This document shows positions 11,840-12,062 of a stretch of DNA of 64,000 nucleotides, piece by piece. The first letter of the stretch is position 1. Each line of letters starts with the position of its first letter. Source of the stretch: Ischnura elegans (Eukaryota; Arthropoda; Insecta; Odonata; Coenagrionidae); NCBI RefSeq assembly GCF_921293095.1, contig NC_060259.1, positions 23,629,812-23,693,811 on the forward strand. The letters run 5' to 3'. The notes below the pieces were generated by a model that saw only the letters and a list, made by a program, of their open reading frames with translations, made no database searches and was not told the DNA's origin. The translations under genes were made by a program, and so were the position numbers.

Positions 11840-11895
11840 AAACATCAGACTCCACCCTCCATCAAGGTTTTAAGTGGGGTCGTCATTATTGCCAC
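11840..11895 (-). promoter_or_regulatory. SECIS element (form II) in TrxR 3' UTR
   Basis: On the minus strand the core ATGA (11886-11883) is followed by exactly 11 bases and then AAAA, and the 3' arm closes with TGAT (11847-11844). This is the SECIS plan: UGA/GA non-Watson-Crick quartet, an ~11-12 base stem, then unpaired apical adenines. Hand folding pairs GACCCCACTT with GGGTGGAGTC with one C/A mismatch and two terminal G-U pairs. Beyond the AAAA bulge a short CC/GG mini-stem with loop TTGAT fits form II. Outside the quartet GCAA pairs with TTGC as the start of helix I. The core starts about 110 bases after the Sec codon, a workable distance. By family knowledge it would be bound by SBP2 and eEFSec to recode the TGA. 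Confidence 0.88.
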
Positions 11896-11993
11896 AAGAG
11901 CTCTTGCACTTCATATCCTTCAGTTGTTGCTATTTTGCTGCTATACTACCAAGAAAGAAAACTTCCTCAGGTAAACAGCAAAAATAGCATACT

Positions 11994-12062
11994 TTAACTT
12001 CAGCAAGACTTCTTCTCCACACTTATTCCAGAGGATTTGGTTATGAACATAGTTGTAAAGAC
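11994..12062 (-). CDS. TrxR: TrxR terminal exon with in-frame TGA (Sec)
   Basis: 69 bases after a long pyrimidine tract (GGATTTTTTTTCAG|). It reads [20 protein letters not shown], then TGA, AGT (Ser) and TAA. The join CAE+VFTTM and the TKSSG motif are the universal C-terminal tail of large TrxRs. The TGA falls exactly where selenocysteine sits in Sec-type TrxRs and where Cys sits in the Cys forms, one residue after the penultimate Cys. A stop directly after Cys would remove the second redox partner. With a SECIS downstream, Sec decoding is the best reading. Confidence 0.93.

Follow-up and report, generated by a model that had tools for sequence, protein, structure and literature searches.

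In thioredoxin reductases (TrxR), electrons pass from NADPH to FAD, to the CVNVGC disulfide, to a C-terminal Cys-Sec pair and finally to thioredoxin, a catalytic path that is well established for the family. TrxR and TGR of the Sec type have been described, and the losses of selenoproteins among insects have been well studied (PMC2500217; PMC5330540; PMC4561486, all in their accessible text). The accessible text of PMC3316567 assigns a glutaredoxin domain to the ancestral TR1. For insects, the accessible part of a 2024 review states that the Sec-Cys pair of TrxR was swapped for Cys-Cys, and that in Drosophila TrxR the Ser flanks stabilise the reactive Cys (PMC11508645). TR is also one of the Cys-homologues that characterise D. 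melanogaster, according to the accessible part of PMC2500217.

Then, could a Sec-type TrxR be found in an early insect? One may already be counted in Figure 8 of PMC2500217. In the literature searched, which lay mostly outside subscription papers, figures and supplements, we found no description of a Ser-Cys-Sec-Ser TrxR tail, and nothing on the damselfly gene considered here, on selenoproteins of Ischnura elegans or on a Sec TrxR in Odonata; figures and supplements may list Sec TrxR of other early insects. Here, we analyse a stretch of 64,000 nucleotides of the I. elegans genome (the window, which means this stretch at its full length). With a probability of roughly 0.84, it carries the 3' end of a Sec TrxR of the TrxR1/TrxR3 (TGR) lineage, in the form of the fourth of eight tandem copies. 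This copy 4 is most likely a pseudogene, with copy 8 as the likeliest working gene.

The in-frame TGA and the SECIS element

Eight TrxR exons are readable on the minus strand of the window, from 33940 down to 11994. They are listed below together with the elements around the 3' end and the evidence for each.

33798 to 33940, minus strand: TrxR exon 2 (VKHNWEKM...HKLK); tblastn with TrxR relatives, splice borders
26090 to 26325, minus strand: TrxR exon 3, frameshifted by two inserted bases (TA) close to its 5' end; eight-copy alignment, insertion in three of eight copies
19898 to 20044, minus strand: TrxR exon 4; tblastn, splice borders
19694 to 19821, minus strand: TrxR exon 5; tblastn, splice borders
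16492 to 16621, minus strand: TrxR exon 6; tblastn, splice borders, copy comparison
16117 to 16347, minus strand: TrxR exon 7; tblastn, splice borders, copy comparison
12936 to 13070, minus strand: TrxR exon 8; tblastn, splice borders, copy comparison
11994 to 12062, minus strand: last coding exon of TrxR, with a Ser-Cys-TGA-Ser-TAA end; sequence reading, splice borders
12000 to 12002, minus strand: in-frame TGA (predicted Sec codon); sequence reading, the same in all eight array copies
11835 to 11895, minus strand: SECIS, with core ATGA 11886-11883, AAAA 11871-11868 and TGAT 11847-11844; Rfam RF00031, descriptor scan, shuffles, constrained fold
11608 to 11613, minus strand: possible polyadenylation signal AATAAA, 3' of the SECIS; seen by eye

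The last coding exon (12062-11994, minus strand), which is preceded by the acceptor TTTTTTTCAG, reads ...VEKKSC-TGA-AGT-TAA, and so bears out the Cys-TGA-Ser-TAA tail that an earlier note had read from the sequence. The TGA sits at the Sec site of the TrxR family, and the alignment of the window tail with solved TrxR1 chains extends to the last Cys. The predicted tail is Ser-Cys-Sec-Ser (SCUS), in which the second Ser comes straight from the codon behind the TGA; the window gene has neither the xCCS tail of insect Cys-type TrxR nor the tree position of that type. The window protein matches two I. elegans models at 98 and 100%, and three NCBI models of the array in this species end at the TGA, that is, at Cys. 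From the sequence features described here, we infer that UGA is decoded as Sec in the damselfly TrxR.

The SECIS core begins with ATGA at 11886, 113 nt past the TGA, and continues with 11 nt, AAAA, a stem (9 pairs in the descriptor used here) and TGAT, in agreement with the structure that the earlier note had placed about 110 bases downstream. The full Rfam model RF00031 (SECIS_1) matches 11895-11835 with 27.9 bits, below its gathering score of 35, with an E-value of 0.0044 for the 1 kb searched and 0.28 for the whole 64 kb, and this is the sole SECIS match in the window up to E 10. At gathering thresholds Rfam gave no match in the whole window, and the other sub-threshold Rfam matches were judged to be chance or repeats. 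When the 500 nt 3' of the TGA were shuffled with dinucleotides preserved (n = 5000), 444 shuffles contained any descriptor match and 3 contained an equally good one. In the descriptor scan of the whole window, the SECIS is the top-ranked site of the minus strand, but a repeated sequence on the plus strand (2462 and 62817) is lower in energy under the same descriptor. A plain fold of the SECIS region (116 nt) has ordinary stability (z -0.71, with 46 of 200 shuffles as good), and the unconstrained fold was set aside as an uninformative test; an 81-nt piece with the core kept open folds at -18.2 kcal/mol. The score below gathering, the lower energy of the plus-strand sequence and the ordinary plain fold count against the SECIS. 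A near-identical SECIS accompanies the same TGA in all eight copies of the array. The location of the SECIS within the mRNA is assumed. An assembly error at the TGA was rejected, as the eight copies agree and as a selenophosphate synthetase (SPS) gene in this genome also contains an in-frame TGA.

The tandem array and the window copy

The TrxR protein P0092 was searched against the 1.72 Gb assembly, and all 61 candidates were scored. The part of TrxR after the FAD exon occurs in eight tandem copies on contig C19 (23.42-23.95 Mb), spaced 61-78 kb apart, and the window holds copy 4. Residues 140-215, 210-253, 302-344, 341-420 and 421-480 of P0092 have eight matches each in the array, and exon 2 (residues 87-134) has six, with no match in copies 3 and 6. 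Because of the eightfold array, sequence at one end of the window recurs at the other, 60,355 bp away, as follows.

1 to 3644, no strand assigned: stretch of the tandem unit recurring near the other end of the window, offset 60,355-60,356 bp; repeat search and paired descriptor matches, with pieces compared only

The exon encoding the FAD site and CVNVGC has a single match on C19 (23945388-23945591), adjoining copy 8 at the upstream end of the array; its only other match in the assembly lies in a TrxR gene on contig C5. For the window copy, tblastn, the assembly search and DNA comparison of the window found no FAD domain with CVNVGC, and neither the window nor 16 further stretches (L039-L054) contain DNA of the FAD exon.

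Moreover, the reading frame of the window copy is broken across its exons by the TA insertion in exon 3. The AG of TATAG was considered as an alternative acceptor of this exon and rejected, because, with exon 2 ending in phase 0, the codons would then be GGA CAA TAA. With the FAD/CVNVGC exon missing and the frame shifted, the idea that the window copy is complete was rejected. Since, in addition, the FAD exon adjoins only one of the eight copies, the window locus should not yield an active enzyme; copy 4 is probably a pseudogene, presumably silent, and the working gene most likely lies elsewhere. Consequently, the Sec TrxR announced by the earlier note stands as regards the Sec codon and the SECIS in an arthropod gene of the TrxR family; what it took for the gene is a headless, frameshifted copy, one of eight in tandem. 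These features escaped it because they lie outside the short stretch that it dealt with.

Lesions differ along the array, where much of copies 1-3 and 6-8 was read as 3-kb pieces only. In the eight-copy alignment, the 2-bp TA insertion in exon 3 is present in copies 2, 4 (the window) and 5. Copy 6 has lost the AG of the exon 3 acceptor, one base is missing from exon 6 of copy 7, which shifts its frame, and exon 8 of copy 5 has a Val-to-Gly change. In those of its exons that were read (3 and 6-9), copy 1 has residue changes and neither frameshift nor stop, and the assembly search found no FAD exon beside it. Copy 8 (C19:23922457-23945591) has an intact exon 3, and all nine of its exons that were read are free of lesions. 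Its completeness is assumed, since the start-codon and glutaredoxin exons upstream of its FAD exon were not found; the glutaredoxin domain had no match in the window, in stretch L018 or in L039-L054.

After removal of columns gapped in any copy and of poorly aligned columns, 12 of 797 columns vary across the copies in exons 3 and 6-9 and 162 of 5822 in introns and flanks (Fisher p 0.033). This weak difference can reflect constraint on copy 8 alone, or some constraint on the others, headless copies included. Copies 4 and 8 differ at 2 of 797 exon sites and 86 of 5822 intron sites, and intron divergence between copy pairs is 0.5-1.7%. The NCBI models of the array listed for I. elegans do not represent copy 8: P0001 fits copy 6 best, P0121 shares substitutions with copy 1, and P0002 has Ala at the position of a Thr in copy 8. 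A model of copy 8 may be hidden among the NCBI entries, as the matches listed were limited to 120 rows and clustered at 90%.

Two other features of the array region were observed. Reading frames on the minus strand at 48401-48210 and 58948-58847 of the window recur in other array units and correspond to the 5' part of P0121 (SEP1-like); they look repeat-derived. An intron stretch at about 20360-20960, seen by eye to be palindromic, is perhaps a small DNA transposon, and a sub-threshold miRNA match (MIR9408, 37.8 of 90 bits) lies inside it.

The Sec-decoding machinery

The earlier note reasoned that a Sec TrxR here would imply a working selenoprotein machinery, and genes for tRNA-Sec, SepSecS, eEFSec and a TGA-bearing SPS were indeed found in the genome. 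The damselfly thus appears capable of decoding the Sec codon. The search for tRNA-Sec gave 38 matches, 3 of them above the cut-off; ARAGORN called these 3 as tRNA-Sec with anticodon tca, and 2 lower-scoring matches that were also checked as tRNA-Ser. The three genes are nearly identical, two at C6:34.56 Mb and one at C11:46.27 Mb. Two tRNA-Sec genes each are given for Machilis hrabei and Daphnia pulex in the accessible text of PMC5330540. SepSecS has five exon matches over the cut-off on C3, one of which holds an in-frame TAG. The eEFSec domain was found on C5 with 111.3 bits, and in none of 14 control genomes, all bacteria and archaea.

Selenophosphate synthetase occurs at two loci, C5:12316180-12328683 and C19:16225648-16228769, with four matches, all single exons below a cut-off made for whole proteins. 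The C5 locus reads ADLRG-TGA-GCKVPQ; its in-frame TGA occupies the Sec site, and the next codons are GGC TGT. According to the accessible text of PMC4561486, SPS1-UGA genes without SECIS carry the hexanucleotide GGG-TGY. Since GGC TGT rather than this hexanucleotide follows the TGA, we read the C5 locus as SPS2, an assignment based on the TGA and the motif.

Two TrxR paralogues

A separate, Cys-type TrxR gene lies at C5:100175877 to about 100198307; it has an SCCS end, corresponds to the NCBI model P0240 (530 residues) and represents the usual enzyme of insects. Among 120 listed rows, P0240 included, 118 have an xCCS end (SCCS in 109 of them), and the two exceptions, both from Timema, have other ends. 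A stretch at C7:78415453-78415794 resembles part of this C5 gene, spans an intron position and contains two stops; it is probably a retrocopy.

In a midpoint-rooted tree of 40 chosen TrxR rows, one branch (100/100) splits 23 rows, including the C19 gene, from 17 rows. The larger side holds vertebrate TrxR1 and TrxR3, arthropod TGR-like and other animal rows besides the C19 gene, and the smaller one insect Cys-type rows and one bird TrxR2. Thus, the damselfly C19 gene belongs with TrxR1/TGR in the family tree. Its 22 companions on that side of the branch are presumably Sec proteins, judging from their ends at Cys. A glutaredoxin domain is present in 111 of the 120 listed relatives of the C19 gene (our count from the Pfam column), including P0122 and P0123 of Hetaerina, which have 82 and 80% identity (P0122 was rescanned). 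Of the 120 relatives in the first list, 106 have C as their last residue, 3 finish with CCG and the others finish elsewhere. All 119 new rows among the listed relatives end in C, which fits an annotation that takes the TGA as a stop in many species.

Relatives of both types of TrxR are among the rows listed for Hetaerina americana, Cloeon dipterum, Anabrus simplex and Periplaneta americana, and also for Gryllus and for Schistocerca, there from different species of the genus. Among the listed relatives of the C19 gene, no named row belongs to higher insects. This pattern points to a loss of the Sec paralogue in higher insects, and not to the conversion of one gene, since Sec-type and Cys-type genes, on opposite sides of the tree, coexist in Ischnura and relatives of both types occur in other early insects.

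The residue before the final Cys in the 119 listed rows is Gly in 103, Ser in 10, Asp in 3, Ala in 2 and Pro in 1. Among the ten rows with insect names, it is Ser in seven, Asp in one (Diploptera), Ala in one (Anabrus) and Gly in one (Gryllus), and it is Gly in 30 of 30 rows with non-insect names. Because the Ser flanks that are thought to permit Cys in Drosophila TrxR would already surround Sec in the other paralogue of early insects, we propose, tentatively and as a rather unlikely idea, that the damselfly enzyme is a natural SCUS TrxR tolerant of a Sec-to-Cys change, with the headless modules of the array maybe used as alternative 3' ends. If true, such tolerance could explain how insects could abandon Sec in TrxR. 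The SCUS tail offers a natural enzyme for testing the role of the Ser flanks.

Proposed mechanism and alternative explanations

In the proposed mechanism, copy 8 is presumably the expressed copy and would be spliced from the FAD exon onward into an mRNA carrying both UGA and SECIS. By recruiting the Sec machinery, the SECIS in this mRNA would let the UGA be decoded as Sec. The product would have a C-terminal Cys-Sec redox pair with Ser on either side, and in the damselfly enzyme electrons would move from NADPH to FAD, to the CVNVGC disulfide, to Cys-Sec and to thioredoxin.

Could the UGA simply be an ordinary stop, with the protein ending at Cys as in the NCBI models? Three I. elegans models do end there and the SECIS score is modest, but a SECIS matched by only 3 of 5000 shuffles stands in the 3' flank, the genes of the Sec machinery are in the genome, and one Ser codon followed by TAA comes where TrxR tails end. 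An end at C in all 119 listed relatives speaks against this explanation as well, which we regard as the least probable of those considered here. Alternatively, the eight copies might be an assembly artefact of a single locus, as their nearly identical exons could suggest. However, the unit lengths range from 61 to 78 kb, the introns of copy pairs diverge by 0.5-1.7% and the lesions differ from copy to copy, which makes an artefact very improbable.

The headless copies, that of the window included, might also be in use, either through splicing of the 5' part with the FAD exon to alternative 3' modules or as short proteins from promoters of their own. Exons are somewhat better conserved than introns, copy 1 is free of frameshifts and stops in the exons read, and headless copies have NCBI models, of which P0001 and P0002 are without the FAD exon and P0121 starts with the frames found at 48401-48210 and 58948-58847 of the window. 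On the other hand, copies 2, 4, 5 and 7 are frameshifted, copy 6 has lost an acceptor, and copies 3 and 6 have no exon 2 match. P0121 matches Pyr_redox_2 from profile position 45 onward only, and therefore is without the start of the FAD site and CVNVGC. Such use is improbable on this balance, and a pseudogene in the window with the working gene at copy 8 is preferred.

If this preferred reading holds, the I. elegans genome has a Sec-type and a Cys-type TrxR from opposite sides of the family tree. The locus also carries two warnings for annotation, namely that gene models of the TrxR family halt at the TGA, and that a broken copy can carry a good Sec tail with a SECIS.

Comparison with known systems

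The closest described system is the TGR / Sec TrxR1 lineage (vertebrate TXNRD1 and TXNRD3, arthropod 'thioredoxin reductase 1, cytoplasmic'), with which the damselfly gene shares the side of the tree, the C-terminal Cys-TGA and the downstream SECIS. It differs in having Ser-Cys-Sec-Ser instead of Gly-Cys-Sec-Gly, and in that its tail part has been amplified eightfold in Ischnura, with the window copy headless and frameshifted; glutaredoxin exons were not located in the parts of the Ischnura genome covered. In the TGA with a SECIS, it resembles other insect selenoprotein genes, such as SPS2, SelK and SelH, of Sec-decoding insects (PMC2500217; PMC5330540, accessible text). With insect Cys-type TrxR, exemplified by the SCCS end of Drosophila (PMC11508645, accessible part) and by P0240 here, it shares the Ser on both sides of the redox pair. 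However, the C19 gene has Sec and is the other paralogue, whereas the Cys type groups with vertebrate TrxR2.
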